DNA of 58,601 nucleotides from Aquitalea magnusonii. Lineage in GTDB: Bacteria; Pseudomonadota; Gammaproteobacteria; Burkholderiales; Chromobacteriaceae. The position numbers and the translations under genes are program-made. Positions within the stretch are counted from its first letter, which is position 1. Each line of letters opens with the position of its first letter. Under the pieces are notes generated by a model that did no database searches, was not told the DNA's origin, and saw only the letters and a program-made list of their open reading frames with translations. The stretch spans positions 1 to 58,601 of the forward strand of contig NZ_QJKC01000020.1 in the NCBI RefSeq assembly GCF_003202035.1. The letters are read 5' to 3'. Positions 3,393 through 41,666 of the stretch are shown here, in pieces.

Positions 3393-3758
3393 TTACCTGT
3401 TCACGTCGAAAGCCAGCACTGCCGGGGTGCCGGTGGGGGCGTCGATATAGCTGATCTGCACCGATACGCCGTTGTTGATCGGCGTCACATCGACCTGAGC
3501 GGCCGGCTTGCGTGCCACGGCGGCCTCCATGGCCAGTTGCGAGCGGATCAGCGCCGTTATCCCCGGTACGTCCACCACATCACCGACAAAGCGGCCAAGG
3601 CCGGCGCCGTAGTCGGGGTGGTGGATGTAGTCGCCAGGGTTTGTCATGAGTCGGCGCAGGATGCGCTGGCGCCCCTTGTCGACACCCGTGACCGGCATCA
3701 GGTCGCCAGTGGGCGAGGTGGACAGGTCGCCGCCTATGAAGTGGTAGAGATCGTTCAT
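3393..3758 (-). CDS. Baseplate wedge protein, Mu gp46/P2 gpW (GP25-like) family
   Basis: The 121-residue product carries the motif GRQRILRRLMTNPGDYIHHPDYG, split here as GRQRILRRLMTNPGDY followed by IHHPDYGAGL, which is characteristic of small gp25/W/gp46 wedge subunits. The family initiates baseplate wedge assembly with the J protein. Length and the position between the spike (V) gene and J gene both fit. No unusual features were seen. Confidence 0.85.
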   Translation of the reverse strand: MNDLYHFIGGDLSTSPTGDLMPVTGVDKGRQRILRRLMTNPGDYIHHPDYGAGLGRFVGDVVDVPGITALIRSQLAMEAAVARKPAAQVDVTPINNGVSVQISYIDAPTGTPAVLAFDVNR

Positions 3759-9766: not shown

Positions 9767-10333
9767 CTTGCTTGCGCTCCTTGAACTTCATCGCGGACCA
9801 ATCAAACTCGTTGCCTTCGAATGTTGAGAAAAGGATAGACATGGCGGCGCGTTCGATCCTGGTCAGCGCCACTTCTTCCCCAAACGCGACATTGAACGGA
9901 ACCCCGTTCCTCACCAACCAGCAGCGGTTTTCGAAATCGGGGTTCCTGGCTAGTTTTTTACTGCAGCCTTTTCCGCCTTCTCGGCTTCCTCCTGCTCCTT
10001 GGCTTTTGCTTCCATGTGCGCATGAATGGCGCGCAAACCCTCGCGACCCACGGCCGTGATGGCGGCCTCGACCTCCAGTTTGGTCTGCGGGATCACCAAG
10101 TGTTCGCCGTCTATCTTTGCAACCAGCACAGCCGGCATCACGTAGCCGAGCATGTAGGCTTGGTTTGCAGCGCCGTCGGCACCGACAGCCAGCACAATGC
10201 GGCTTTCCTGCAGAGGGCCGATCTCGCGGAGCTCAAGCGTGCGGCCCTTGCTGTCGACCACGCTATCCACGCTGGCCTGGGCGACGGTGGCCTCAACCTT
10301 CTTGTCGTGCACGGTCACTTTCGGGGTTGCCAT
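9756..10333 (-). CDS. Tail assembly chaperone, -1 frameshifted form (gpG-GT-like)
   Basis: If ribosomes slip -1 at the heptamer, translation continues for 65 sense codons to TAA 9758-9756, giving about 192 residues. The added part reads as a real protein: RNPDFENRCWLVRN, then EVALTRIERAAMS, ending FEGNEFDWSAMKFKERK. The aromatic/Met-rich ending of the 'F.W..M' type is what T-domains of chaperones show in many phages. It ends inside the gp10-like gene start. This second frame has no start codon of its own that would make sense. Confidence 0.82.
9898..9959 (-). promoter_or_regulatory. Programmed -1 ribosomal frameshift signal
   Basis: On the minus strand the heptamer A_AAA_AAC occupies 9959-9953 in the correct phase (codons GTA AAA AAC TAG). 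After a 6-nt spacer, GGAACCCCG (9946-9938) can pair perfectly with CGGGGTTCC (9906-9898), a 9-bp stem with a 31-nt loop that could fold further or form a pseudoknot. Heptamer, spacer length and stem together are the classic stimulatory arrangement. Confidence 0.85.
9950..10333 (-). CDS. Tail assembly chaperone, unshifted form
   Basis: The 127-residue product (MATPKVTVHDKKVEATVAQA) has an Asp/Glu/Lys/Ala-rich helical end and stops at TAG directly after an A_AAA_AAC slippery heptamer. It lies between tube and tape measure, where gpG-type chaperones that bind the tape measure are encoded. The normal product would be made in excess over the shifted product. See the separate entries for the frameshift signal and the extended protein. 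Confidence 0.82.
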   Translation of the reverse strand: MATPKVTVHDKKVEATVAQASVDSVVDSKGRTLELREIGPLQESRIVLAVGADGAANQAYMLGYVMPAVLVAKIDGEHLVIPQTKLEVEAAITAVGREGLRAIHAHMEAKAKEQEEAEKAEKAAVKN

Positions 10334-14354: not shown

Positions 14355-14738
14355 TCACACCACCAGTCTTACAGATCCGCCACTGCCCAAGCCTGGCCCG
14401 GGCGGAATGCCCATGAAGGCACACAGTTCGCGGCGATAGTGGGAGAAGAGGGCGACACGGTCGGCCACCTCGTTCGCGTTGTGTTTCCAAACAGCGGCTT
14501 GCTCCGTGTCCAGATTGGCGCGCGCCCCCGGCACGTCACTTTCAAGCAGGTAGAGGTTTGCCAGATAGGTGGTGCGGGTTACCGCCTCTTCTTCAGCCAG
14601 CATGTTGTTCAGCTTGTACTCCAGAATGCCGTAAGCCGTGCTGAAGCGCGTACCGCTGGCCGGGGTGTACTGCGAGCCGAACATGCCATATCCGCAGAAG
14701 CGGCGGACATCGACCTTTTCTGCGGTGGTGAATGCCAT
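14355..14738 (-). CDS. Head-tail connector region protein
   Basis: The 127-residue product (MAFTTAEKVDVRRFCGYGMF ... LANLYLLESDVPGARANLDT ... YRRELCAFMGIPPGPGLGSG) is mainly helical. Its size and position two genes after the major capsid gene match the small connector/adaptor proteins of tailed phages, which form the ring below the portal. The family was not identified by name, so the role is positional inference. Confidence 0.5.
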   Translation of the reverse strand: MAFTTAEKVDVRRFCGYGMFGSQYTPASGTRFSTAYGILEYKLNNMLAEEEAVTRTTYLANLYLLESDVPGARANLDTEQAAVWKHNANEVADRVALFSHYRRELCAFMGIPPGPGLGSGGSVRLVV

Positions 14739-14741
14739 GCT

Positions 14742-15020
14742 TTACTCCGGAATTACGTGTTCAGCGCCGAAATCAACCAGCAGCTTGATTTCGTCAGCAT
14801 CGGTAACGACCTGGCCAGCCTGCCACATGCGCAGGTTTTTGCTTTCGTCGTAGAAGCCAAAAGGGCAGGTCAGGGCGATCAGCGCGGGCAGTTCGGCCGG
14901 CGAGATAGCCTCCTGATCAGTATTGGCCTCCGTGGTGGGAGTGCCGTCAGTTTCGCCAGCACCCTGAAGCAAGTCAGCACCGGGCTCAGCTTGTGCTTTG
15001 GGGGGAGTCTTCGTTGCCAT
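14742..15020 (-). CDS. Small phage protein with Pro/Ala/Thr-rich N-terminus
   Basis: The 92-residue product starts at ATG 15020 with GGAGG five bases upstream (MATKTPPKAQAEPGADLLQG). The low-complexity N-terminal half is followed by a compact C-terminus (CPFGFYDESKNLRMWQAGQV, then DADEIKLLVDFGAEHVIP) resembling small proteins encoded just after capsid genes. A 22-bp sequence that contains its own ribosome site is repeated in frame 99 bp downstream. Function unknown. Confidence 0.55.
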   Translation of the reverse strand: MATKTPPKAQAEPGADLLQGAGETDGTPTTEANTDQEAISPAELPALIALTCPFGFYDESKNLRMWQAGQVVTDADEIKLLVDFGAEHVIPE

Positions 15021-15042
15021 ATTGGCCTCCGTGGTGGGAGTG
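14922..15042. repeat. 22-bp direct repeat spanning a ribosome site and reused as coding sequence
   Basis: The sequence attggcctccgtggtgggag plus tg occurs at 14922-14943 and 15021-15042, exactly 99 bp apart. The copy at 15021 supplies the GGAGG and upstream leader of the 92-residue gene. The other copy lies inside that gene in the same phase and encodes TPTTEAN. It suggests a short tandem duplication that built the low-complexity N-terminus. Confidence 0.85.
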
Positions 15043-15076
15043 GTGGCCCAGCGCATGAGCGCCAGGCCGCTACCAG

Positions 15077-16435
15077 TTAGCCAGCGTGTTCGATCACGAC
15101 AGCGCGCTTCAGGTACTGGCTACCTGCGGTCGGGATGATGGTCTGGTTCGCAGTGGCATCAGTCGGTGCGACAAAGCCGCCAATCCAGAACCAGGACTGC
15201 GCAACGATCTGTTGCAGGCGGTCCAGCGGGCCACGAGTGACCTGCACCACACCGTCGACAACCTGCACTTCGGAGTTGATGCCCCAGGTTTCGTGGGCCT
15301 TCTGCTCCATCCCGGCAAAGTCGCCTTCCACCAGGGCGCCGGGGGCGCACAGAATCGGGCGGCGAGTACGAACAGGGACATTGCTGCCGGCAGCTTGTAC
15401 CAGCGCTTCAGTGGTGGGAATGAAGTTCACGCCCATCAGCTGGAATACCTTGCCTTGACGGGCTTCCGGCGAGCCGTATTGGCCTTGGTACATCAGCTTG
15501 AAGTCCTGGTCAGCGAACAGCTGGCGCATGGACACGTTATCCAGGTAGAAATTGAACATTTCATCCTGCATGCCGGTGTTGTTGCGCAAGGTAGCAACTG
15601 CATCCTCGATGGTGCCGAGGGTCAGCACATCGGAAGAAGTCAGGGCGGAAGTGGCAGTAGTCGAACCCTGCGCGCTGCCGCCATACCACTTGCCGTTCGG
15701 GCGAACCAGCGCCGGGGCGTTCAGGTGGATGACGGCATTCAGTGCAGTGCCATCGGCTACGGTCACGTTGCCAGAGAAAGTCAGCGTACCGGAGGTGCCA
15801 CCAAAAGCAGCCACCGACGATACGTTGGAGCCATCCACGGCGACACCGGTCAGGGTGTAGACGTTCGAACCGATCAGCACCTGAGCAGTATTGGTGCCGG
15901 ATACGGGGACAAACTGGCCATTGACCAGCACGGTAGCGAAGCCGCGCACGTCATCCACGTTAATGGTGGCGGCCGGAGCGCCCAGGGTGGTGCGGACGCG
16001 AGTCTGGCCGCCCATGTAAGCGTTGAACAGCGCATTGCGTGCGATGCGATCCAGCGACTGGCGCGCCTGAATACCATTGGTCTGGGCGTTTTTCAGGAAC
16101 TGATTCGCGATGCCTACCTGAGAGGTGATTACGTTCAGGTCGATGGTATCGGCGTACTGGTTGATGCCCAGCGTGTATTGCTCCACCGTGAACGCGGACG
16201 GGGTCAGGCCATTGTCCAGGTTGGTGTTGCTGGATGCGGTCAGCGGGGTGGTGACCGGGGCTTTCAGACCGGTACGGGTCTTGGTGACGGTTTCACCGAC
16301 GTTGATGGCGACCGGCTCACGGTCGGCCACGGCGCGATAGCCCAGGGCGGAAGTAAGGCCATCATGGAATTCGCGCTCCAGGAAGCCTTGTTGAATGATC
16401 GGCTGCAGCGCCGTCGGCATATTCTGAATGGGCAT
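15077..16435 (-). CDS. Major capsid protein (HK97-like) with inserted domain
   Basis: The 452-residue product begins MPIQNMPTALQPIIQQGFLE and contains DREPVAINVGETVTKTRTG and LGINQYADTIDLNVITSQVG. The latter resembles the E-loop and P-domain region of capsid proteins of this phage type. A Thr/Gly/Val-rich stretch from about residue 170 to 255 (VSGTNTAQVLIGSNVYTLTG, then AAFGGTSGTLTFSG) looks like an Ig-like or surface domain inserted into the A/P core. The scaffold gene lies directly upstream, as expected. Start ATG 16435 has TGGAG at suitable spacing. Confidence 0.85.
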   Translation of the reverse strand: MPIQNMPTALQPIIQQGFLEREFHDGLTSALGYRAVADREPVAINVGETVTKTRTGLKAPVTTPLTASSNTNLDNGLTPSAFTVEQYTLGINQYADTIDLNVITSQVGIANQFLKNAQTNGIQARQSLDRIARNALFNAYMGGQTRVRTTLGAPAATINVDDVRGFATVLVNGQFVPVSGTNTAQVLIGSNVYTLTGVAVDGSNVSSVAAFGGTSGTLTFSGNVTVADGTALNAVIHLNAPALVRPNGKWYGGSAQGSTTATSALTSSDVLTLGTIEDAVATLRNNTGMQDEMFNFYLDNVSMRQLFADQDFKLMYQGQYGSPEARQGKVFQLMGVNFIPTTEALVQAAGSNVPVRTRRPILCAPGALVEGDFAGMEQKAHETWGINSEVQVVDGVVQVTRGPLDRLQQIVAQSWFWIGGFVAPTDATANQTIIPTAGSQYLKRAVVIEHAG

Positions 16436-16504
16436 GGTTGCTCCAGTTGAATGAGATGGTTTTCATTCCCCTGGGCGTCTTGCCCCGATGGGAGATGGCT
16501 TCGG

Positions 16505-17020
16505 TTAACCCTTGAGCAGCGCTGCCTTGGCAGCGGCATACTCTTCGGTGGTCATGTCCTTGGCCTGCTTCGCCTCGGCCGGTTTCGGTTTGGGCGCGGT
16601 TTCGGTGGAGGATGTGCTCGACTGCTCACCGAACAGATACGGTTTGCTTTCCTTGAGACCAGCGAACAGTGCTTCAGCACCTTCGATTTTTCCGTCCGCA
16701 AATTTGACGGCGGACAGATCCAGCAGCTTCAACTGATCCAGATCCAGCAAGCCGGACTTCACAGCTACGCTTTTCAGCTCAGCCTGCAAAACGCGCTTGT
16801 CGGCTTCTGCGCTGGCTTCGGCCAGTGCTGCCTCACGAATCTTGGGTGCGGCTTCGTCAATGGCTTTCTTTACGGCTTCTGCCGTAGCCTGTTCGAAGCC
16901 ATCTACCTTGCCTTGCAGCTCGGTATTCTTCAGGCGCAATCCCTTGTTTTCAGCTCGGAGTTCGCGGACGTACTCGGCAGAGAAGGATTGCGGTTCAGGA
17001 TTGTTTGCGGGGTCGGACAT
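16505..17020 (-). CDS. Capsid scaffolding protein
   Basis: The 171-residue product is a charged coiled coil (RELRAENKGLRLKNTELQGK) followed by an Ala/Lys/Glu helix and a Ser/Thr/Pro/Lys linker. Its C-terminus is short and basic-hydrophobic (MTTEEYAAAKAALLKG), as in scaffolds that dock on capsid subunits. It resembles the gp20/DUF4355-like scaffolds and lies immediately before the major capsid gene. No protease active site is seen, so a separate head protease is not implied. Confidence 0.75.
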   Translation of the reverse strand: MSDPANNPEPQSFSAEYVRELRAENKGLRLKNTELQGKVDGFEQATAEAVKKAIDEAAPKIREAALAEASAEADKRVLQAELKSVAVKSGLLDLDQLKLLDLSAVKFADGKIEGAEALFAGLKESKPYLFGEQSSTSSTETAPKPKPAEAKQAKDMTTEEYAAAKAALLKG

Positions 17021-17043
17021 CTAGTCTTCTCCAAAATGAAAAA

Positions 17044-17063
17044 CGCCCTGAATCATCAGGGCG
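17044..17063 (-). terminator. Hairpin before the scaffold gene
   Basis: A perfect 8-bp inverted repeat CGCCCTGA/TCAGGGCG with a 4-nt loop is followed on the minus strand by TTTTTCATTTTGGAGAAGAC, running into the scaffold gene ribosome site. This is the clearest terminator-like member of the recurrent leader family, and could separate portal/terminase from capsid expression. Confidence 0.75.
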
Positions 17064-17089
17064 ACTTGGTTGCGCGGAATCGTCCGCAA

Positions 17090-17527
17090 TCACATGTCGT
17101 AGAACGCGATAGACAGCTCGCATTGCGCCGGCACGGAAGTCGCCAGCGTCAGGCTGACGGTAATGCTGTTCCCTACGGGATAGAGCTGCATCAGCACCGC
17201 GTTGGAAGCTGCGTTAGAAGTGCTGCCACCAGTCTGGACTGAGGAGGCAGTCTTGATCGGCAGCATCTCCGGCAGGGTCAGACCAGGGTCGGCACATTGC
17301 ACCGTCAAAACATCAGCGTTGGCGGTGTTGGTGCGCTTGCTTGCTACGATGGTACGAACCCATTCGGGCACGGTCAGGGTGAACTGCACCGTATCGCCAA
17401 CAGCCAGGCCGGCTTGCGCGAGAACGTTGTAATGCCGCTCGTAGCGCAATGCCGCCTTGGCTTTGCTGACTTCAAGCACAAGTGCAGCGCCGGCCAGCGC
17501 GGGCGCATCAAGGTTGTATGTGGCCAT
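17090..17527 (-). CDS. Probable head structural protein, unknown
   Basis: The 145-residue product (MATYNLDAPALAGAALVLEV ... VQFTLTVPEWVRTIVASKRT ... NSITVSLTLATSVPAQCELS) is beta-rich and without membrane segments. It is encoded between portal and scaffold and ends at the hairpin before the scaffold gene. A decoration or head-vertex role is possible, but the sequence does not show it. The start codon overlaps the portal stop (ATGA-type overlap). Confidence 0.5.
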   Translation of the reverse strand: MATYNLDAPALAGAALVLEVSKAKAALRYERHYNVLAQAGLAVGDTVQFTLTVPEWVRTIVASKRTNTANADVLTVQCADPGLTLPEMLPIKTASSVQTGGSTSNAASNAVLMQLYPVGNSITVSLTLATSVPAQCELSIAFYDM

Positions 17528-19002
17528 CAGTCATCACTCTGTGAAAGCGGCTCCTGCTTTGGTGCAGCAGCGGCTGAGTTGGGCGAGGGTGGATCTTTAT
17601 CGATTTGTCGCAGCTCGTCAGCCGGGTCCGCAATGTCGTAGCTGTCGGCTATCGATTTGACTGCTGTTTCCCGACTCAGCAAGCCACCGTCACGCAAAGT
17701 TGTGACTGTCTCTGCCTGCGTTTGCTTATCGGCATAGGTGGGCGCATACCAAGCCGGCCAGCGTAGTGAGATATCACCTTTTTCTGACAGCGGGCCAATC
17801 TCGCTGCCACGCTTGTCCACCAGTTTGAACTTGGCGCTGGCGCGCACGGCCATGCTGAGCAGGTCAAGGAGGGCACCTTCCCCGTAACTGGTGCGCAGCT
17901 TGTCGGCCAGCCAGATCAGGGCCTGATTCATCAGTTCCATTGCCCGGCCAGACTGTGCGGCGCTGAGTTTGTCCGCATTGGCCCGGTTGCCGTGGGCAGT
18001 TTCAAGAGCTAACTCGCGGACTGCGCGCACATACTCGACCACAGCGGCCACTGCCGTACCGTTGATCTCCAGCAACTTGGCATCGCCTTCAGTGCTGGTA
18101 ATGATGGCGCGGTCTGCGCCGCGAACCATCTGGCCTTCACCAAATGCCGGCTGTTTGATATGCAGCGTAGGGTCAGACGAGTAGCGCAAGCCACGACCAG
18201 CCTGGGAAAGTTGGTAGTCGATCTCAATCTGGCAATCGATTGCCTCGGATGGCATTGTCGGCATGCCGTCAATATCATCACCGCCCGGTAGATTCTTTAC
18301 CCACACCATCGGCACAAAGCCGAGGTTGTGCTGCGTGGTGCGCTTGGCATCGACAGTAAATTTCTGACCCTTTTTGGCGTCATCAACCTTCAGGGGGTCA
18401 TGCCAGGTTTCGGCATTTGCATCCCAAATCCGGCAAAACCAGAAGTCCACAGACGCGTCATCGTCTGCAATGGCGTAGCCCATTGCTTTCAAGTCCGCGC
18501 CTTTGACTTTGTACTGCTCAGTTACCCTTTGCAGAGTGTCAGGTGCGTCTGGCTGCCATTCGGGCGTCAGGTAGGCCGTGGGTAGCACCTTCCAGAAAAT
18601 GCGCTTTTTCAGCACGCGCATCAGGATGGCCACGGAGCCGACAGAGCCTCGGATGGCAGCATCGGTCATGATCAGATTGAGGCCGCTATCCTTTGACAGG
18701 CGCTCAAGGCTGTCGCGGGTTGCCTCGTCCGCACACTCAAATGCCGGGAAGTGGCCTTCGCTGAATAGCAGGCTGACGCTGTCTTCCACGACCGTGCGGC
18801 AGAGGTTGTAGCGCACAGACGGCCGGCGCTTGCTCAGCGGGATGTATTCGTCGATGACGTCTACCTGCTCTTTGTCGAAGGGGTACTGGAGGCAGTCGTA
18901 CATCGTGCCATCCAGCACCTTCGTCAGCGCCAGCAGGGTGCGTGTGCGCTCGGGATAGTCCGAGTCTTTCGGGTAGGTACCCCGTAGCTCTTGAAAGTCC
19001 AT
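17527..19002 (-). CDS. Portal protein
   Basis: The 491-residue product matches the general portal pattern: RTRTLLALTKVLDGTMYDCL, VRYNLCRTVVEDSVSLLFSE, LNLIMTDAAIRGSVGSVAIL, and a long C-terminal helix region with LETAHGNRANADKLSAAQSG and RAMELMNQALIWLADKLRTS. It is directly downstream of the large terminase. The portal forms the dodecameric DNA entry ring. Length is normal for the SPP1-type/DUF1073-type portals. Confidence 0.85.
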   Translation of the reverse strand: MDFQELRGTYPKDSDYPERTRTLLALTKVLDGTMYDCLQYPFDKEQVDVIDEYIPLSKRRPSVRYNLCRTVVEDSVSLLFSEGHFPAFECADEATRDSLERLSKDSGLNLIMTDAAIRGSVGSVAILMRVLKKRIFWKVLPTAYLTPEWQPDAPDTLQRVTEQYKVKGADLKAMGYAIADDDASVDFWFCRIWDANAETWHDPLKVDDAKKGQKFTVDAKRTTQHNLGFVPMVWVKNLPGGDDIDGMPTMPSEAIDCQIEIDYQLSQAGRGLRYSSDPTLHIKQPAFGEGQMVRGADRAIITSTEGDAKLLEINGTAVAAVVEYVRAVRELALETAHGNRANADKLSAAQSGRAMELMNQALIWLADKLRTSYGEGALLDLLSMAVRASAKFKLVDKRGSEIGPLSEKGDISLRWPAWYAPTYADKQTQAETVTTLRDGGLLSRETAVKSIADSYDIADPADELRQIDKDPPSPNSAAAAPKQEPLSQSDD

Positions 19003-19003
19003 C

Positions 19004-20284
19004 TCAGCGTCTCATGTGCGGCACATGTGCGCCGTGGGTTGCAATCGGTTTTACGACCGGCCAGCGCCACACCATGAAGTAGCCGCCGGCATCGTTCGGG
19101 TGGTCGTGGTCGGTGGTTTTGTCGGGTTCGCCGTTGTCGTCATACGGCTGCTGCTCCAGGCTTTCCGTGTACGTCGGGCACAGATCGGTGTTCACCTTCA
19201 GCCGGCGCACGCCCTGGTCATTCAGGATCAACGCATTGACGCTGTTGATCCGGTCTTTGACCGGCGGGTTGGTGCTCTTGGCCATGATCTGGAATCCGGC
19301 CTGCTGCAGGATGGTCAGGTCAGACTGGCTGGCGCTCTTGCTGCTTGTGTTCTGGCCGCTGGCATCCGGGTAAACCGTGATGGCGTGGCCCTTGTCCTTG
19401 TACCGCTCGCGGATCATGCGGGCCATATCGGGCGTGTCGCGCACTTTCACCAATTCGCCCACGGCATGCGGGCAGTCGTCACGCACCACAAAGACAACAG
19501 CAGCCATCTTGTTGACGTTGAAGTCCATGCCGATGTGCAGCGGCTCCCCCGGCATGGCCACAGTCGGCGCATGGTTCAACACGCGGCTGAACTCCGGGTA
19601 CACGCAGCCGCTGTTCAAGTTGACGAAGCGGCCCTCAAGGTAGGCCTCGATCAGCTGAGGCGGGTAGCTGGCGCGAAGGCTATCGATGTAGTCGACCGGC
19701 AGGAACGGATTGGTGCGGGTAGGAGCCTGCACCATGGCGTAGCCTGGCTTCGGGTTCTTGCCCCATGTCTCGTAAACAAAGCGGAAGCCTTCGGGTGTGG
19801 TGTAGACGGACACTCGATTGAATGGATTTTCCAACCCCTTTGGCATCTGCCGGTTACGGGCAATGATCTTTCGCCATGCATGCTGCGCATGATCTTTTTT
19901 CAGTGTGTCGATCTCATCGACGTGCGCCCGGTAGGACTGGTAACCGATGATGCGCGCCGGGTTGTCTAGCGTCCGCATCACGAAGTCGCCACAGCCACCA
20001 TTGGCCGTATAGATGATGTTCTCGGTCTTGTTGTACCGGTACCGGATGCCAAGCTCCGAAAGCTTCTCCTCCATCCGCGGGGCCAGAATCAGGCGGATAA
20101 GGTCGTAAGTCGGCTCGTACAGCGCGATCAGCGCGCTGGATGACTCCAGGGCGTCGCGGGTAGCGCACATGGCCAGTGCCTCGGTCTTGCCGGTGCCGAA
20201 GCCGCCAACAAAGGCGGGGTACTTGTCAGGAAGCTGGAAGAACCTTGCCTGCGGCTCCGTCATGGTCATCCGGATTTCACGCAT
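19004..20284 (-). CDS. Terminase large subunit
   Basis: The 426-residue ATPase-nuclease shows Walker A GGFGTGKT (residues 27-34) and Walker B AHVDEID (DE about 123-124). Nuclease acidic residues are at IGMDFN (D254) and TVYPDASG (D307), with a C-terminal DHDHPNDAGGY. It packages DNA into proheads through the portal. The start ATG 20284 overlaps the small-subunit stop by 8 bp, so the two subunits are co-translated. Packaging mode cannot be told from sequence alone. Confidence 0.95.
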   Translation of the reverse strand: MREIRMTMTEPQARFFQLPDKYPAFVGGFGTGKTEALAMCATRDALESSSALIALYEPTYDLIRLILAPRMEEKLSELGIRYRYNKTENIIYTANGGCGDFVMRTLDNPARIIGYQSYRAHVDEIDTLKKDHAQHAWRKIIARNRQMPKGLENPFNRVSVYTTPEGFRFVYETWGKNPKPGYAMVQAPTRTNPFLPVDYIDSLRASYPPQLIEAYLEGRFVNLNSGCVYPEFSRVLNHAPTVAMPGEPLHIGMDFNVNKMAAVVFVVRDDCPHAVGELVKVRDTPDMARMIRERYKDKGHAITVYPDASGQNTSSKSASQSDLTILQQAGFQIMAKSTNPPVKDRINSVNALILNDQGVRRLKVNTDLCPTYTESLEQQPYDDNGEPDKTTDHDHPNDAGGYFMVWRWPVVKPIATHGAHVPHMRR

Positions 20285-20982: not shown

Positions 20983-21053
20983 GGGGAATTTTTACAACAC
21001 GCGGAAGAAATCTGAATTTTCCCCTTGCATGTTTGATTGTTGTATTACATAAT
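20983..21053 (+). promoter_or_regulatory. Promoter and candidate operator of the anti-CRISPR operon
   Basis: TTGCAT (21025-21030) and CATAAT (21048-21053) are 17 bp apart, a good sigma-70 pair. A 7-bp inverted repeat, TACAACA (20993-20999) and TGTTGTA (21038-21044), places one arm in the promoter spacer; GGGGAA (20983-20988) and TTCCCC (21019-21024) form another. Known acr operons are autorepressed by their Aca protein at inverted repeats over the promoter, so these are candidate sites for the downstream small protein. Confidence 0.55.
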
Positions 21054-21089
21054 TCATTCAACAGAACGCGACACGCAAAGGAAAGCAAA

Positions 21090-21542
21090 ATGGAACTCTT
21101 CCACACAACCGCAAACGAAATTGGCACCATTCACAAAAATGGCCGCTTTGGTGAGTTCTTCTGCTTTTCTTCCAACGTGTACGTGATGGTTGCCGGCGAA
21201 TACTTCACTTACTCGATTGAGATCGATGAAGATGAGCTGATCAACGCTAGCAGCTTGTTCTACCACGAAGACGCCGAAAAGCTGTCCGGACTTGTTTCAA
21301 CGCTGTGCAACCGTCTTTCGATTTCCGAGGACGAAGCCGAAGACCTGATCAGCGAGAAGGTTTCCGGCTGGGATCTGATCGATTCTTGGGACGCTGAGCA
21401 AGACTGGGACCTGCAACGCCTCACTGCTAGCGCTGCCAAAATCCTGGGCTACCGTGGCTGCATCATGAAAGACGAACAGGGCACGCTGTACATGATCGAC
21501 ATGCTGGGCCGTGAAGCTGACCTGGTAAAAGTAAATGGATAA
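21090..21542 (+). CDS. acrIF11: AcrIF11-like anti-CRISPR (ADP-ribosyltransferase)
   Basis: The 150-residue product starts at ATG 21090 behind AAAGGAAAG. Its opening MELFHTTANEIGTI, GRFGEFFCF, VYVMVAGEYFTYSIEIDED, SSLFYHEDAEKLSGLV, and the ending MKDEQGTLYMIDMLGREADL correspond closely, along the full length, to the AcrIF11 sequence as I remember it (MEIFHTS..., ...DEQGTCYMIDMLGHDAELV). AcrIF11 ADP-ribosylates the Cas8f subunit of type I-F Cascade and blocks target recognition. It lies on the plus strand between terminase and early genes, overlaps the next small gene by 8 bp and has its own promoter. An upstream in-frame start at 20886 is rejected. Confidence 0.92.
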   Translation: MELFHTTANEIGTIHKNGRFGEFFCFSSNVYVMVAGEYFTYSIEIDEDELINASSLFYHEDAEKLSGLVSTLCNRLSISEDEAEDLISEKVSGWDLIDSWDAEQDWDLQRLTASAAKILGYRGCIMKDEQGTLYMIDMLGREADLVKVNG

Positions 21543-21711
21543 TCAAGCAACCAATCGTGGCGGCTCTCGCCCAGGCGCTGGCCGGCCAAAGGCAGAGTCT
21601 CCCACCAAGCCCCGGTCTTTGCGCCTCACCGATGCGGAGTGGCAAAAATTGCAGGACCTTGGCGGCGTCGAATGGATACGCGCTCAGCTGGATCAAGCCT
21701 TTCAGAAATGA
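21535..21711 (+). CDS. Small putative DNA-binding protein, candidate anti-CRISPR-associated regulator
   Basis: The 58-residue product (MDNQATNRGGSRPGAGRPK, then RSLRLTDAEWQKLQDLGGV, EWIRAQLDQAFQK) has a basic Gly/Pro-rich arm, one short strand-like RSLRLT and two helices, a layout like a ribbon-helix-helix protein. Proteins with 'GG.RPGAGRP' starts are common in phages and largely uncharacterised. Its start overlaps the stop of the AcrIF11-like gene, the position where aca repressors are found. It does not resemble the HTH-type Aca proteins I remember, so its Aca role is inference. Confidence 0.7.
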   Translation: MDNQATNRGGSRPGAGRPKAESPTKPRSLRLTDAEWQKLQDLGGVEWIRAQLDQAFQK

Positions 21712-21944: not shown

Positions 21945-22056
21945 AGCCCGAACTCTGGACGAAGTTCGGGCTGCTGCAAATATCGTAGTTTTGTTGCATC
22001 AGCCCGAACTCTGGACGAAGTTCGGGCTGCTGCAAATATCGTAGTTTTGTTGCATC
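21945..22056 (-). repeat. Perfect 56-bp tandem duplication carrying two terminator hairpins
   Basis: Units 21945-22000 and 22001-22056 are identical. Each holds a perfect 10-bp inverted repeat (AGCCCGAACT / AGTTCGGGCT, 8-nt loop) plus a 28-bp linker. On the minus strand the second hairpin encountered (21972-21945) is followed by TTTTTGCTTTTC, making a good intrinsic terminator. The first is followed by the repeat linker instead. It sits exactly between the last early-operon gene and the 66-residue gene. Confidence 0.9.
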
Positions 22057-22546
22057 AGGCTGTCAAGCGCTCCGCATAGACCAAGTATTCCAGCATCTCC
22101 CGATGCGGCCCCTCCAGCACCCCGTAAGCCTTGTGCATCAGCAGCTCCAGAGCCTGTACCACGGTTTTCTCATACCGGCTGGCAGTGGAGTAGTGCACAT
22201 GATGCCGATCCCCCAGCTCACGACACCCAGGCCCTTCACCCGTTGCCCACTTGCGGATGATGTCCAGATCTGTCTTGAAGCCGAACCGGCAGGGCGTGTG
22301 CGTGGTCAGGTAGACCATCTCCGTCTCCCGCTGCACATGCAGTGCCCACAGCACAGCGCGTTGCTCGGCCGGCAGCCGGTTGATCTTGAGCATGACCATG
22401 GCGGCCTGGGCCTTGAGATCGTGCGGTGTCACATCAGCAAACGCGGGGGAGGTCTGCTGCTCACCGAACTTCTGGACCTTCACCAGGCACACGGCCTCGA
22501 TCTGGAACGCCCATCCCACCAGTGACTTGATCGTCGAAAACTGCAT
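22055..22546 (-). CDS. Last early gene: putative late-gene regulator (Q-like position)
   Basis: The 163-residue product (MQFSTIKSLVGWAFQIEAVC ... MLKINRLPAEQRAVLWALHV ... RKWATGEGPGCRELGDRHHV HYSTASRYEKTVVQALELL) looks like a DNA-binding protein with a C-terminal helix-turn-helix reminiscent of sigma-region-4 or antiterminator folds. I cannot name a family. It is the last gene of the leftward early operon and is followed directly by the tandem terminators, which is the place of Q antiterminators in lambda-type phages. ATG 22546 is preferred for its AGGGGG at 7-nt spacing. Confidence 0.5.
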   Translation of the reverse strand: MQFSTIKSLVGWAFQIEAVCLVKVQKFGEQQTSPAFADVTPHDLKAQAAMVMLKINRLPAEQRAVLWALHVQRETEMVYLTTHTPCRFGFKTDLDIIRKWATGEGPGCRELGDRHHVHYSTASRYEKTVVQALELLMHKAYGVLEGPHREMLEYLVYAERLTA

Positions 22547-24731: not shown

Positions 24732-25961
24732 CTACTCCGCGCCGAACAGAAGTGGCTGCACAGCGCCGTTCTGATAGACGATATCCAGCGGCACCGTGGC
24801 CAGTGGCTCGTCGCCATCCCAGCCCTGCGGCCAGGTCTCAAGGGCGATCAGCTCACGGATGCGGGCCTCTTCCTCGGCATTGATCAGGTCGATATGGGGC
24901 ATGCCGTCGCGGTCTGCGCCAGCGTTGACTTCGGCCTGGATGGCCAGCACGCGCTCCAAGCCCATCAGCCGAGCCTCAAACGTCAGCGGGCCCATGCGTT
25001 GCGGGTTCGCGGCGATGCTTCCGTCTTTCAGACGTTCCAGGCCCGGTTTGCGCAGGCGGTGCTGCGGCTCACGTAGTTCACGCCACAGCAACTTCAGGCC
25101 CTTCAGGGGGGCCAGGTATTGCCAACGGGGATTCAGCAGGATGGTGTCGAGTGCCTTGTCTTCCTGGGCCAGCGGGCAGCCGATGCAACCGGTTCGCGCA
25201 TTGACCTCTTCAGCCTCATCACCACCGTAGGCATCAGCAATCATGCGGGTGCTGAAGTCGCCAAACTCTGCCGTCGGGGCCCAATGTTTCAGCCACTCCC
25301 AGACGTGGCACACACGCCAGTGCAGCAGTGGGGCCAGGGTAGCGATCCGGCCGCGCAGGCCCTTGGCGTTAGGAAGCACCTGCTGATACCAGCCCTGACC
25401 GCACTCGGCGCCGTCCTTGCCGCAGCTCATCTCAATGCGGCGGTCGCGAATGGCGCTTTCGCCCTGGCGCACGCCAGTGATCATCAGGATGTTGCCGTCC
25501 AGCTCATCAAGTCGCTGGCGCAGCGCTTCTTCCATCGGGGTGATCTTGATCTGGCCGGTGCACCAGTGCAGGGTGCCGTTGTTTGGTGGAGGAACACCGC
25601 GGCCGAGCAGGTAGACCATGAATCGCTTGTCGAGCGGCGCGCGTACAACTTCCACGCGGATACCGCGGTCGTCCAGCTCGTCCATGATCTGTTGCGCGGC
25701 GATGGCCAGGGGGGGCAGTTCGAGGCGCGTGTCGGCATAGAACACGGTCAGAGACTTGGGCCGCTGGATCTTGCCGGCATCGAGCAGGTACATGATCAAG
25801 GTCAGCGTGGCGCTGCTGTCTTTGCCACCGGACCATGCGATGCCCCAGTGGTCGTTTTCCGGCCCATAAGCCTGCAACGACTGGATGGTCAGCTCGATGG
25901 ACTCGGTCATCTGCATGCGGCGCGCGCCAGCGGCAAAGATGTCGATTTGCTGGGGATTCAT
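24732..25961 (-). CDS. PAPS reductase-family (DndC-like) PP-loop enzyme
   Basis: The 409-residue product carries the PP-loop IAWSGGKDSSATL about residues 43-55, GTLHWCTGQIKITPMEEAL and a Cys cluster (MSCGKDGAECGQGW; ARTGCIGCPLAQEDKAL) that could hold an iron-sulphur cluster, as in DndC and related sulphurtransferase-like enzymes. It could thiolate DNA or another substrate. No dndB, D or E lies nearby. It overlaps the methyltransferase gene by 4 bp (ATGA), so the two are translated together. A start at 26087 is rejected. Confidence 0.75.
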   Translation of the reverse strand: MNPQQIDIFAAGARRMQMTESIELTIQSLQAYGPENDHWGIAWSGGKDSSATLTLIMYLLDAGKIQRPKSLTVFYADTRLELPPLAIAAQQIMDELDDRGIRVEVVRAPLDKRFMVYLLGRGVPPPNNGTLHWCTGQIKITPMEEALRQRLDELDGNILMITGVRQGESAIRDRRIEMSCGKDGAECGQGWYQQVLPNAKGLRGRIATLAPLLHWRVCHVWEWLKHWAPTAEFGDFSTRMIADAYGGDEAEEVNARTGCIGCPLAQEDKALDTILLNPRWQYLAPLKGLKLLWRELREPQHRLRKPGLERLKDGSIAANPQRMGPLTFEARLMGLERVLAIQAEVNAGADRDGMPHIDLINAEEEARIRELIALETWPQGWDGDEPLATVPLDIVYQNGAVQPLLFGAE

Positions 25962-27739
25962 ACGGCCCCCTGGACGGAAAGAGCAATCGCCAGCGGGCGG
26001 ACCCAGATCGGCGTTGCAGAAAGTACGAAGGTTTCGCCGCTCCAGGCGAGCAGCAGGGTGGTGCCCATCACTTCGGCAATGGCGCATGCCGCTTCCGGAG
26101 GAACCATGTTGCCGATGCGTTCGCGCCAGTCGCTGTCGCTCAAACCATCCAGTTCGAGGTATTCCTCGGGTTCGATCAGCGATTGCAGGGCAGCCAGCTC
26201 GAAGGTGGTGAAAGGGCGGTGCCAGGTACCGTCAAGCGAGCGGATCACGCATTGCAGCTTCTCGTTCGGTTCGGGCATGCGGGGATCGGCAACGCTCCAG
26301 CGGCCGTTGTCATGGCCTGCAGCAGCCGATACGGCGCCGCTGGTTTGATCCCAGCCGATCACGCCGTAGTGGCCGCCGGTCAAATAGTTGTCACCGCTCT
26401 GGCGACGATTTAAACCGGTACGTGGATCCGCAACGGCAAATGCGCCTTGGCCGGTGGTGCTGCCAGAAATGACGGTACCGGCTGCCTCATCCCAGTCGGT
26501 GACCATGTACTTGCCAAAGGTCGGGCCGATTCGGCGAGGATCTGCGACAGCTTGGCCGCCGGAGCTGGGGCCGTGGCCACCGGTAATGGTGCCGGCAGCC
26601 TGGTCGAAGCTGACGACGCGGAAAACATTGTTGTGGCGTACCTTCTCCGCGCGCGGGTCTGCGACGGAATACTTTCCGCCACCGGGGGCCGACTGGCTGC
26701 TGATGGCGCCGGAATGCACATCCCAGGGCAATACGCCGTACTGGCTGTATTCGGCCATCTGGGTACGGGGATCTGCAACGGAGAAAGCCCCATTGCTGGG
26801 GGTAGATCGGCCAGCAACGGTACCGGTCGGATCATTCCAGGCATTCACGCCCAGATAGCCTGCGCGGTATTCCGGAACAAGCAGGTAATCACGGAGCTGG
26901 CCGTTTTCCACTTCCAGGCGGTTCAGGCTGCGCCAGTCGCTGCCAGCTTCTACGAATGCGAGGCGCACCCAGGTTTTCCACTGCAAGGACGGAACGCGGT
27001 GCATCGGGCCGCCTGCCAGATCGCCCGGCATCGGCATGCGGCCGAGTACGGTACCGACGGCCTCTAGGCGCTTTTTCTCCGGCTCGTACAGGAACGGGGC
27101 TACTTTCTCGATGTGACGGGCCACCAGCAGGAAGCGCTTGCGGGATTGGGCAAGGCCGCCGATCTCGCCACAGTCGTGGGTGGTTTCGGCCACGGCGTAG
27201 CCATAGGCGCGCAGCAGTTCGCCAATCTGGTCAAGCAGGTGCCGGCCTCGGTTGGCGATGCGTGGCACGTTTTCGAACACGATCAGCTCGGCAGGATCGT
27301 CGGCATAGGCTTCCAGAGCCAGCCAGATACCGCGCAAGGTCAAACGATTCAGGGCCTGATACTTGGCTGTCTTACTGCGCGATTCATTCAGCAGGCCGCT
27401 GAAGCCCTTGCAGGGAGCTGACAGGAACCAGATGTGAGGGGATTCATTGCCCATGGCGCGACGGATGTCTACCGGCGTGGCTTCGCGCCAGTCGGTCGGC
27501 GGCTCTTTGCCATGGAAGTCGATGTACTGGGAACGGTCGAACAGATCCATTACCGTACCTGGCACGCCGACGATGCTGTTGAAATCGCGGATGGCAGCTG
27601 CATCCACGTCAATGCCGCCCAGGCAACGGAATTTGGCTTGAAGATTGCCAACGCGCGGTTGCGCTTTGTTGAAGCCCTTTGCGCCGCCGCCCAGGCCGCA
27701 GAACAGATGAGCATGGCGGATTTCGCGTGTCTCGATCAT
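25958..27739 (-). CDS. DNA cytosine-5 methyltransferase with five internal repeats
   Basis: The 593-residue product has motif I HLFCGLGGGA (11-20), catalytic motif IV SAPCKGFSG with Cys110, motif VI FENVP (155-159), motif VIII AQSRKR (197-202) and C-terminal motif X RIGNMVPPEA (about 540-549). The region where the target-recognition domain lies (about 290-490) contains five ~38-residue repeats, each ending in VADPR (321, 359, 398, 436, 483) with cores like WDEAAGTV and WDVHSGAI. It may protect phage DNA from restriction. No paired restriction gene is nearby, so it is an orphan methylase. Confidence 0.93.
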   Translation of the reverse strand: MIETREIRHAHLFCGLGGGAKGFNKAQPRVGNLQAKFRCLGGIDVDAAAIRDFNSIVGVPGTVMDLFDRSQYIDFHGKEPPTDWREATPVDIRRAMGNESPHIWFLSAPCKGFSGLLNESRSKTAKYQALNRLTLRGIWLALEAYADDPAELIVFENVPRIANRGRHLLDQIGELLRAYGYAVAETTHDCGEIGGLAQSRKRFLLVARHIEKVAPFLYEPEKKRLEAVGTVLGRMPMPGDLAGGPMHRVPSLQWKTWVRLAFVEAGSDWRSLNRLEVENGQLRDYLLVPEYRAGYLGVNAWNDPTGTVAGRSTPSNGAFSVADPRTQMAEYSQYGVLPWDVHSGAISSQSAPGGGKYSVADPRAEKVRHNNVFRVVSFDQAAGTITGGHGPSSGGQAVADPRRIGPTFGKYMVTDWDEAAGTVISGSTTGQGAFAVADPRTGLNRRQSGDNYLTGGHYGVIGWDQTSGAVSAAAGHDNGRWSVADPRMPEPNEKLQCVIRSLDGTWHRPFTTFELAALQSLIEPEEYLELDGLSDSDWRERIGNMVPPEAACAIAEVMGTTLLLAWSGETFVLSATPIWVRPLAIALSVQGAV

Positions 27740-38587: not shown

Positions 38588-39793
38588 TCAGGCCTTTTTC
38601 TCGGCCCCGGCTATCCAGCCGTCCACCATGTCCGCCCACTTCTGCAGCATATCCCGTCGCTGCTCCACGTATTCCGCCTTGTTGTAGACCGCGCGAACGC
38701 CTTTCTGCTCGTGCGCCAGGCACTTCTCGATCCAATCCGAATTGAACCCCGCCTCATGCAGTAGCGTGCTGGCCGTGCGCCGCAGGTCGTGCACGCCGAA
38801 CGACTCCAGCGGCAGACCGGCCGCCTGGGCGCGCTCTACCGTCGCGTCAATGACCCGGTTTAAGGTCGCGTTCGACATCCCCTTATCACCCTCATAGCGC
38901 GATGGCAGCAGGAACTTGGAGCCGCCGGCACAGGTCTTGAGCGCGATCATGATGTCCAGTGTCTGTTGCGACAGGTAGACGTTGTGCGGTCGGCGCGCCT
39001 TCATCCTGTCGGCAGAGATCGTCCATACCGCGTCGGTAAAATTGACCTCTGGCCAGGTGGCATTCAGCAGCTCGCTTTTGCGCACCATCGTGAGCAGCAC
39101 CAGCTTGAGCGCCAGGCGGATGGTCGGCAGCGTGCTGACCAGTTCCAGCTGCTGGAAGAAGATGCGGATCTCGTCGGGGGAGAGGGCGCGGTCCTTCGGC
39201 TTGAACGTGGCGATCGACGACGCGCTGACGGTATCGGCCGGGTTCGTTACCTTCTGGCCGCGCTCGATGGCCCAGCGGTAAATTTGCTGGACGATTTCCC
39301 GGGCGTGCACGGCAGTGGCTGGCGCACCGCGCGCCTTGATCTTGTCGCACAAGCTGCGCAGGTCTTCGTCGGTAATTTCGCCGAGCTTGTGATTCTGGAA
39401 TACCGGCAGGATATCGCGGTTCAGAATGCTCTCGCGCATGGCCTTGGTGCTCTCGGCCATACCGTAATCCGCCAGCCAGCTGACGGTAAATTCACCGAAG
39501 GTTTTTGCCGCCCGGTCTTGCCGTTTACCGCGCTGCTTTTCCTTGGCCGGCGACTTGCCGGCGGCGATGTCTTTCTTGGCCTCGATCAGGGACTCGCGCG
39601 CAGCGGCCAGGGAGAGCCCAGCAGGCCCATAACGGCCAATGGTAAGGGTTTCGCGGCGACCATTCAGGCGGTAGTCGTAGCGGAAGGTGACGGTACCGGC
39701 AGGGGAGACGGCTACATACAGGCCGTCACGGTCGGTGACCTTGTAGAGCTTGTCCTGGGGCTTGAGGTTCTTCAGCTTGGTATCTGTGAGCAC
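38588..39793 (-). CDS. int: P4-type tyrosine integrase
   Basis: The 401-residue product has the DUF4102 arm-binding N-terminus (LTDTKLKNLKPQDKLYKVTD RDGLYVAV), a core-binding region about 95-185 and catalytic residues R238 (MVRKSELL), H335-x-x-R338 (VHDLRRTA), H361 and Y370 (RAVYNKAEY). It reads toward the phage interior and its promoter lies in the attachment region between it and guaA. The neighbouring multi-copy TACCGTCA motif is probably its arm site. Confidence 0.96.
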   Translation of the reverse strand: MLTDTKLKNLKPQDKLYKVTDRDGLYVAVSPAGTVTFRYDYRLNGRRETLTIGRYGPAGLSLAAARESLIEAKKDIAAGKSPAKEKQRGKRQDRAAKTFGEFTVSWLADYGMAESTKAMRESILNRDILPVFQNHKLGEITDEDLRSLCDKIKARGAPATAVHAREIVQQIYRWAIERGQKVTNPADTVSASSIATFKPKDRALSPDEIRIFFQQLELVSTLPTIRLALKLVLLTMVRKSELLNATWPEVNFTDAVWTISADRMKARRPHNVYLSQQTLDIMIALKTCAGGSKFLLPSRYEGDKGMSNATLNRVIDATVERAQAAGLPLESFGVHDLRRTASTLLHEAGFNSDWIEKCLAHEQKGVRAVYNKAEYVEQRRDMLQKWADMVDGWIAGAEKKA

Positions 39794-40088: not shown

Positions 40089-41666
40089 TTATTCCCACTC
40101 AATCGTTGCCGGCGGTTTGCCCGATACATCGTAAACCACGCGGTTGATGCCGCGCACTTCGTTGATGATGCGGTTGGAGGCGCGGCCCAAGAGGGAGTAG
40201 GGCAGTTCGGCCCAGTGGGCGGTCATGAAGTCGCTGGTGACCACGGCACGCAGGGCCACCACGTAGTCGTAAGTGCGGCCATCGCCCATTACGCCTACCG
40301 ATTTCACTGGCAGGAACACGGCAAAGGCCTGGCTGGTGAGGTCGTACCAGTTTTTGCCGGTTTTTTCGTCCACGGTATTGCGCAGTTCTTCAATGAAGAT
40401 GGCGTCGGCCTGGCGCAGCAGGTCGGCGTATTCCATTTTCACTTCGCCAAGGATACGCACCCCCAGGCCCGGGCCCGGGAAGGGGTGACGGTACACCATG
40501 TCGTGCGGCAGGCCCAGCGCCACGCCCAGTTGACGGACTTCGTCCTTGAACAGCTCGCGCAGCGGTTCCAGCAGCTTGAGGTTCATGTCTTCCGGCAGGC
40601 CGCCCACATTGTGGTGGCTCTTGATGGTGTGGGCCTTCTTGGTTTTGGCTCCGGCCGATTCGATTACGTCCGGGTAGATGGTGCCCTGGGCCAGCCACTT
40701 GGCATTGGTCAGCTTGTTGGATTCGGCCTGGAAGACTTCGACGAATTCGCCGCCGATGATCTTGCGCTTCTTTTCCGGATCGGTTTCGCCGGCCAGTTTG
40801 CTCATGAACTGTTCGGTGGCATCCACGTGGATGACTTTCACGCCCAGGTTCTGCGCAAACATTTCCATCACCATCTTGCCTTCGTTCAGGCGCAACAGGC
40901 CGTGGTCGACGAAGACGCAGGTCAGTTGCGGGCCGATGGCGCGATGGATCAGCGCGGCAGCGACCGAGCTGTCCACGCCGCCGGACAGGCCGAGGATGAC
41001 TTCTTCATCGCCCACTTGCTCGCGGATTTTCTTCACCGCTTCGTCGATGTAGTTGGGCATGGTCCAGCTGGGCTTGCAAGCCGCCACGTGCAGCACGAAA
41101 CGATGGATCATTTCGGTGCCGCGCTTGGTGTGGGTCACTTCCGGGTGGAACTGCACGCCGTAGTAGCCACGGTCTTCATCCGCCATGGCGGCAATCGGGC
41201 AGGACGGGGTTTCGGCGATGACGTGGAAGCCTTGCGGCAGGGCAGTCACCTTGTCGCCATGGCTCATCCACACATCCAGGAAGCCGTTGCCGGCATCGTC
41301 GATGTGATCCTGCAAGCCTTCCAGCAGTTTGGAGTGATGGCGGGCCTGGATCTGGGCGTAGCCGAATTCGCGCTTGTCACCAGCTTCCACCTTGCCACCC
41401 AGGCTTTGCGCCATGAACTGCATGCCGTAGCAGATGCCCAGTACCGGGATGCCCAGTTCGAACAGGGCCGGGTCGGCCTGGTAGTCCGATTCGTACACCG
41501 AGTTGGGACCGCCGGACAGAATGATGGCCTTGGGGCCGAATGCACGGATTTCTTCAATCGGCATGTCAAACGAATGAAGCTCACAGTAGACGTGAGCTTC
41601 GCGTACGCGGCGGGCAATCAACTGGGTAACTTGAGAGCCGAAGTCGAGAATGAGGATCTTGTCCAT
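40089..41666 (-). CDS. guaA: GMP synthase (glutamine-hydrolysing)
   Basis: The 525-residue product has a class-I amidotransferase domain (GICYGMQF with the catalytic Cys; HPEVTHT with His/Glu) and an ATP-pyrophosphatase domain with LSGGVDSS. It ends with the usual PPATIEWE. It converts XMP to GMP in purine synthesis. The prophage adjoins its 3' end, a known integration hotspot in other bacteria, and the reading frame is intact to a normal C-terminus. ATG 41666 with AAGGA is chosen over 41711. Confidence 0.98.

Follow-up and report, generated by a model that had tools for sequence, protein, structure and literature searches.

An AcrIF11 anti-CRISPR and a small candidate regulator encoded in a prophage that is matched by its host's own type I-F array

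How does a bacterium survive with two prophages that are matched by spacers of its own, complete-looking type I-F CRISPR array? The question is raised by a 58,601-nt stretch of Aquitalea magnusonii DNA, here called the window, which is one whole contig of a 4.4 Mb genome and carries one of these prophages; the other, an inovirus, resides elsewhere in the same genome. We consider it highly probable that an AcrIF11 protein encoded in the window holds the host I-F system off, which would protect its own prophage as well as the inovirus, and that a 58-residue protein encoded directly behind it probably represses the cassette through the promoter element TTTGATT. The Acr adds a member to an established family, in a setting that is unusually informative; the partner gene is a lead that could be new. 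Neither the 58-codon gene nor the self-targeting spacers had appeared in the original prediction.

The acrIF11 gene lies at 21090–21542 on the forward strand and encodes 150 residues from ATG to TAA; in a mechanical ORF list its frame extends upstream to 20886, the 150-residue product being that of the ATG start. We assigned family membership by a curated NCBIfam model matched over its length, and the protein aligns to positions 1–142 of the 142 in the equivalog NF052490 (AcrIF11_anti) with 162.7 bits (E 9.6e-48, cut-off 50). A phmmer search of the PDB returned two chains, 8dwq (E 1.3e-46 over residues 1–148) and 6kyf (E 1.7e-4). Pfam and PADLOC gave no real match, which leaves NCBIfam and the solved structures as the basis of the call; by sequence, the protein is a further member of the AcrIF11 family. 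The original prediction of a 150-residue AcrIF11 was right, and the motifs it listed are all found: FHT (residues 4–6), GRFGEF, SLFYHE and DEQGTLYMIDMLG. At 51%, the G+C content of the gene is lower than the 60% of the prophage part of the window. AcrIF11 is rare among relatives of the host, being found in one of ten genomes of the genus and one of 300 drawn from the order, both times the window's own genome.

Across 24 aligned proteins, the window's included, H5, F20, Y31, D128 and E129 are invariant, and D128/E129 align with D146/E147 of 8dwq; the alignment to family and structure that had been suggested as a check therefore finds the catalytic Asp/Glu pair kept. A model built from this alignment (pLDDT 93.3) retrieved only 8dwq (E 5.2e-11) and 6kyf (E 1.0e-5) below 0.001 in a fold search. 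Model and alignment together point to an ADP-ribosyltransferase (ART) fold with the catalytic Asp of the solved homologues (D115, or D146/E147). AcrIF11Pae2 (PDB 8DWQ, 'H3 protein') has the fold and the Asp-Glu pair in common with the window's protein, is of similar length and is 49% identical in structural alignment, while AcrIF11Pae1 (PDB 6KYF) shares the ART fold and the catalytic Asp region at only 25% identity, also by structural alignment. In PMC12421852, 8DWQ is described as AcrIF11Pae2, solved and active, and as ADP-ribosylating Csy1 in cells. Whereas AcrIF11Pae2 was compared as a protein alone, the window's gene stands in a genome whose I-F array targets its prophage and is followed by a gene for a ribbon-helix-helix (RHH)-like protein of 58 residues.

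As an ADP-ribosyltransferase, the window's protein would transfer ADP-ribose from NAD onto the host Cas8f, and with Cas8f so modified, the Csy complex would no longer bind DNA. The host Cas8f is 450 residues long from its ATG, and the asparagine targeted by AcrIF11 (N250 in P. aeruginosa Cas8f) is kept in its KPQN motif as N261, the putative acceptor. Conservation in Cas7f is partial: K58, K60 and K66, to which PMC12421852 assigns roles, are conserved in the host, and S70, whose effect is given there as weaker, is not.

The presumed target of the Acr is present in the same cell. The host carries an I-F operon of cas1, cas2/3 (1120 aa), csy1, csy2, csy3 and cas6f, all free of internal stops and with an array beside them; csy2 and cas6f are named by gene order and likeness to congeners only. 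The six genes are 70–97% identical to those of the congeners compared, and csy1 occurs in five of ten genomes of the genus, the host included, which answers the suggestion that I-F cas genes be sought in the same and sister genomes. The host lineage had been predicted to be exposed to type I-F CRISPR; a full I-F operon in the host itself, together with a spacer against the window's prophage, makes the case stronger than was stated. The array holds 56 spacers; all but three of its repeats conform to the consensus, leaving aside one repeat-like stretch that lies outside it. Two irregularities of the array (L007) were seen in passing: spacers 17 and 41 from the leader are the same spacer, and one interval, at 10109–10155, is 47 nt long against the usual 32–33.

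Both strands of the window were searched with all 56 spacers, and 280 shuffled spacers served as a control. The 31st spacer from the leader (number 26 in the array listing) matches 31 of 32 positions of a forward-strand protospacer at 3676–3707, with a mismatch at position 9 and with CC at 3674–3675, within a CCCC stretch; the best of the shuffled spacers still had 9 mismatches. The target lies in a reverse-strand gene for a gp25-like baseplate wedge protein (3393–3758), which matches phrog_975, phrog_120, phrog_43 and phrog_261, all tail or baseplate families, and has no Pfam match. Further self-targets were sought by a BLAST of the array against its own genome, followed by a count of mismatches in the window and in those matching loci that were retrieved. 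Three more spacers, counted from the leader, match contig C1 behind CC: spacer 5 at C1:277739 (32/32), spacer 13 at C1:272613 (31/32, mismatch at 20) and spacer 25 at C1:271546 (31/32, mismatch at 8). This region is a resident inovirus with coat protein B, a G2P-type replication protein and a Zot-domain protein. CC is the PAM of type I-F systems, and positions 1–8 form the seed. All four self-targets with zero or one mismatch (one in the window prophage, three in the inovirus) lie behind 5′-CC, and two of the four protospacers could be partial escapes because their mismatch falls at position 8 or 9. Spacer 11 of the array listing was rejected as having a target in the window (8 mismatches, no CC), as were a match at C4:7314 (two mismatches, AA flank) and one on C2, where the best ungapped match of any spacer has 11 mismatches; weaker rows of the own-genome BLAST were left out of the target count.

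The window prophage spans about 1–39793, its left end being cut by the contig end, and a viral contig of 39,791 bases contains the same stretch. Its integrase (phrog_1) lies at 38588–39793 on the reverse strand, and the next host gene beyond, at about 40089–41666, is probably a GMP synthase, given an annotated GMP synthase domain in the matching sequence. On the other side of the acr cassette, the leftward block includes the terminase large subunit (19004–20284, reverse strand, phrog_2). The element appears to be a temperate tailed prophage in which phage genes running leftward flank a two-gene, acr–aca-like cassette that probably has a promoter of its own. Elsewhere in it, at 24732–27739, two genes match phage genes whose annotations read PAPS reductase/DndC and DNA cytosine methyltransferase, their DNA being about 76% identical to Pseudomonas phages over part of its length.

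The survival of this host is best explained by the Acr holding the I-F system off, because a complete-looking I-F array matches both prophages; AcrIF11 would thereby shield the prophage that encodes it and, in trans, the inovirus. There is a precedent. According to Roux et al. 2019 (PMC6813254), self-targeting of inoviruses is rare (45 of 1,429 genomes), 43 of the 45 self-targeted inoviruses occur beside dsDNA phages, five of these with known acr genes, and in a P. aeruginosa test self-targeting killed the cells except where another resident phage provided an Acr, which demonstrated rescue in trans. The arrangement described there recurs here: the host's CRISPR array targets a resident inovirus, and a dsDNA prophage elsewhere in that genome carries an acr gene. 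The difference is that, here, a spacer of this array also matches the acr prophage. The genome is a natural test of protection by an Acr, since an intact-looking I-F host carries spacers against both the acr prophage and a filamentous prophage: for that reason, removal of one gene should kill the host or cure the prophages.

An unlikely alternative is that AcrIF11 is real and the host I-F system is silent, being either not expressed or subtly inactive, so that self-targeting is tolerated without the Acr. Expression is not visible from sequence, and such decay does occur in the genus, where an in-frame stop in congener G003 (L008, C1, about 14715–18232) splits cas2/3 into open stretches of 883 and 244 codons, so that its I-F system may be broken. 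The host's six cas genes, however, are uninterrupted and at the level of identity to congeners given above, its array is long with few variant repeats, and the cassette itself is intact. As controls we took three I-F congeners lacking AcrIF11, namely G003 (26 units), G004 (40) and G007 (14, the array ending at a contig edge), and left out G006, which has three repeats at a contig end. Compared with their own genomes at E up to 0.001, the three arrays matched only themselves and yielded no self-target, whereas the host array gave six further matches at the same threshold. This control is small and flawed: in G004, which is complete, the cas genes are uninterrupted; G003, also complete, is weakened as a control by the stop within cas2/3; and only part of the G007 array is on the contig.

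Protection by another Acr elsewhere in the genome, which would make AcrIF11 redundant, is in our estimate distinctly unlikely. Many Acrs belong to no curated family, our screen covered only 39 small proteins, and NCBIfam gave no name to an AcrF31-like protein from another genome that Pfam detects (locus L075, below). Against this, no Acr family was found among those 39 small proteins, from the window prophage and the inovirus region, with NCBIfam and Pfam at E up to 0.01, and AcrIF11 would suffice by its known function.

If AcrIF11 is the protector, how is its gene controlled? The original prediction gave the cassette its own promoter. Its orientation speaks for this, as it runs opposite to the leftward called genes on both sides, and so does a promoter-like layout read by eye at 21025–21053 on the forward strand (TTGCAT, 17 nt, CATAAT) and shared by the upstream regions of relatives such as L048 and L049; a consensus scan, in which this site fell below threshold, did not report it, and we regard the promoter as probable. 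TTTGATT, the proposed operator core, lies inside the promoter spacer (21032–21038, forward strand), and an imperfect inverted repeat, TGTTG...CAACA, spans the −10 region (21038–21063, forward strand). The longer string TTTGATTNTTG occurs once in the window, at 21032–21042, and at least one copy also appeared in 12 of 100 shuffles.

The second gene of the cassette (21535–21711, forward strand) begins just before the acr stop, in the place typical of an aca gene, and encodes the proposed autorepressor. Its 58-residue product consists of a GGSRPGAGRP tail followed by SLRLTDAEWQKLQDLGGVEWIRAQLDQA. A monomer model (pLDDT 71.8 overall; 87, 84 and 78 in the last three blocks) has no regular element up to residue 32 and helices at 33–41 and 45–57, and this moderate-confidence prediction of a GRP-rich tail, an extended stretch and two helices is RHH-like in pattern. 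The protein has no significant Pfam or NCBIfam match. Ten partner-family members, this one included, gave no HTH family at E up to 1 (HMMER filters drop most matches above about 0.1), and one of the ten weakly matched RHH_7 (E 0.09). Neither a Foldseek comparison of the model with PDB structures nor a search of the family profile against PDB sequences returned anything significant. With a moderate model, no significant structure match and one weak RHH_7 match, the RHH fold is suggested by the pattern.

What follows AcrIF11 elsewhere? We compared 34 loci, the window's own phage among them, of which 12 came from genomes and 22 from viral contigs. In most, a short gene overlaps acrIF11 or lies close behind it, and these genes are of several kinds: among five other partners compared with Pfam, that of L028 matches HTH_3 above the cut-off, those of L025 and L049 weakly match HTH or KORA families, and those of L023 and L059 match nothing of note. 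The window's partner family stands behind AcrIF11 in only two of the 34, the window's phage and L062, whose core is identical at 15 of 28 residues. Within the host's family, the partner profile was found in three of 61 genomes: the host, G033 (GRP tail only) and G026. In G026, which lacks csy1, the partner follows a 53-codon gene (L075) whose product matches Pfam AcrF31 with 93.8 bits (cut-off 27) and the N-terminal half of AcrIE4-F7 (7vzm; E 1.6e-18). A small downstream gene recurring with different acr families is a mark of acr–aca pairs, and it is seen here: twice with AcrIF11 (window, L062) and once with an AcrF31/AcrIE4-like gene (L075).

The L075 cassette lies between relatives (77% and 69% identical) of the 66-codon and 163-codon genes that follow the window's cassette. 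That it occupies exactly the window's slot was considered and rejected, since it sits on the other side of the shared 66-codon gene. Adjoining that gene in the window, at about 21945–22057, is a stretch with a GCCCGAACT...AGTTCGGGC hairpin, twice in tandem, and a similar stretch is found upstream of the AcrF31-like gene in L075. Behind the L075 cassette, at 1020–1484, a 154-codon gene with weak family matches only could encode a further regulator.

The same comparisons bear on whether the pair might instead be an ART toxin with an RHH antitoxin. Gene order and overlap do resemble such modules, and the AcrIF11 model weakly resembles the VPA0770 toxin in fold (E 0.06). Yet the protein passes the AcrIF11 equivalog and is close to a proven Acr, the genes downstream of AcrIF11 vary widely, and the partner also follows an AcrIE4/AcrF31-type gene; we regard a toxin–antitoxin module as very improbable.

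A second mark of acr–aca pairs is a shared operator-like element in the promoter. We counted elements within 80 nt upstream of eight cassettes or lone genes that have the partner, having removed relatives that match mainly in the GRP tail and left out L112, which has no upstream sequence. TTTGATT is present in six of the eight regions and absent from L106 and L078. The element was noticed on these same eight sequences, which the shuffle test allows for by searching all 7-mers: in 2000 dinucleotide shuffles the best shared 7-mer reached four regions, in 17 shuffles. TTTGATT occurs in none of the 32 AcrIF11 loci with other neighbours (25 distinct upstream sequences). In two held-out and mutually related loci, L084 and L086, it again has a −35-like hexamer on one side and a −10-like hexamer on the other, and the small first gene that follows overlaps the partner; the element is 55 nt before the first-gene start in L084, and the start in L086 is ambiguous. 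Held-out L073, a P. syringae phage with a relative of the partner, has no TTTGATT within 600 nt. We propose that the RHH-like protein probably binds TTTGATT in the promoter and represses the operon.

On another reading, which we find doubtful, the 58-codon gene is a small phage gene without any tie to the acr gene, or itself encodes a second Acr, and TTTGATT is shared through common descent of the promoters. The relative in L073, with no neighbour annotated as an Acr and no TTTGATT nearby, fits it, as does the close kinship of some element-bearing cassettes: L079 and L080 are 68% identical upstream, L118 is a near copy of L080, and L084 and L086 are alike. The remaining pairs among the eight upstream regions are, however, only 26–53% identical, TTTGATT stands before unrelated first genes, and without L079, which resembles L080, the count is still five of seven against a shuffle maximum of four.

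The operator also works as a search term. When viral contigs were searched with a pattern derived from L079 and L080, four were found: these two, L118 and L117, a new operon. Each of the four has a small first gene with the partner behind it. NCBIfam gave no match to the first genes of L079, L080, L106 and L117, nor did Pfam to those of L079, L080 and L106. Together with the first genes of L084 and L086, these make six candidate anti-CRISPR or other anti-defence genes. The partner's operator may accordingly serve as bait for new anti-CRISPRs.

The partner resembles Aca1–Aca10 in being a short protein encoded directly behind an acr gene and in having promoter repeats. It differs from them in having no HTH match and an RHH-like pattern; Aca1–Aca10 are described as HTH proteins in PMC9410906, and AcaFinder (PMC9765179) seeks HTH proteins near acr genes. 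A search of open-access journal papers found no bacterial RHH-type Aca, and a term search of the main text of PMC12026748 found no occurrence; PMC11065993 reports RHH domains in some predicted anti-defence proteins of archaeal viruses. The 58-codon gene probably encodes a non-HTH Aca. We lean towards the fuller claim that, in bacteria, no non-HTH Aca family had been recognised before this one, which would be of the ribbon-helix-helix type and would repress its own operons through a TTTGATT operator. On this view the family has been combined with two or more unrelated Acr families, and the operator leads to unnamed candidate acr genes, the first genes of L079, L080, L084, L086 and L117, to which the partner adds that of L106. 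The partner would then point to acr regulators outside the HTH proteins on which Aca mining is built, and HTH-based searches would miss such operons if it is indeed an RHH-type Aca.

A different small gene family (MSKAQK...), whose member in L023 has no Pfam or NCBIfam match, follows AcrIF11 in L023, L046, L047 and L058, and a palindrome around ATATCATATGATAT lies upstream in these loci.
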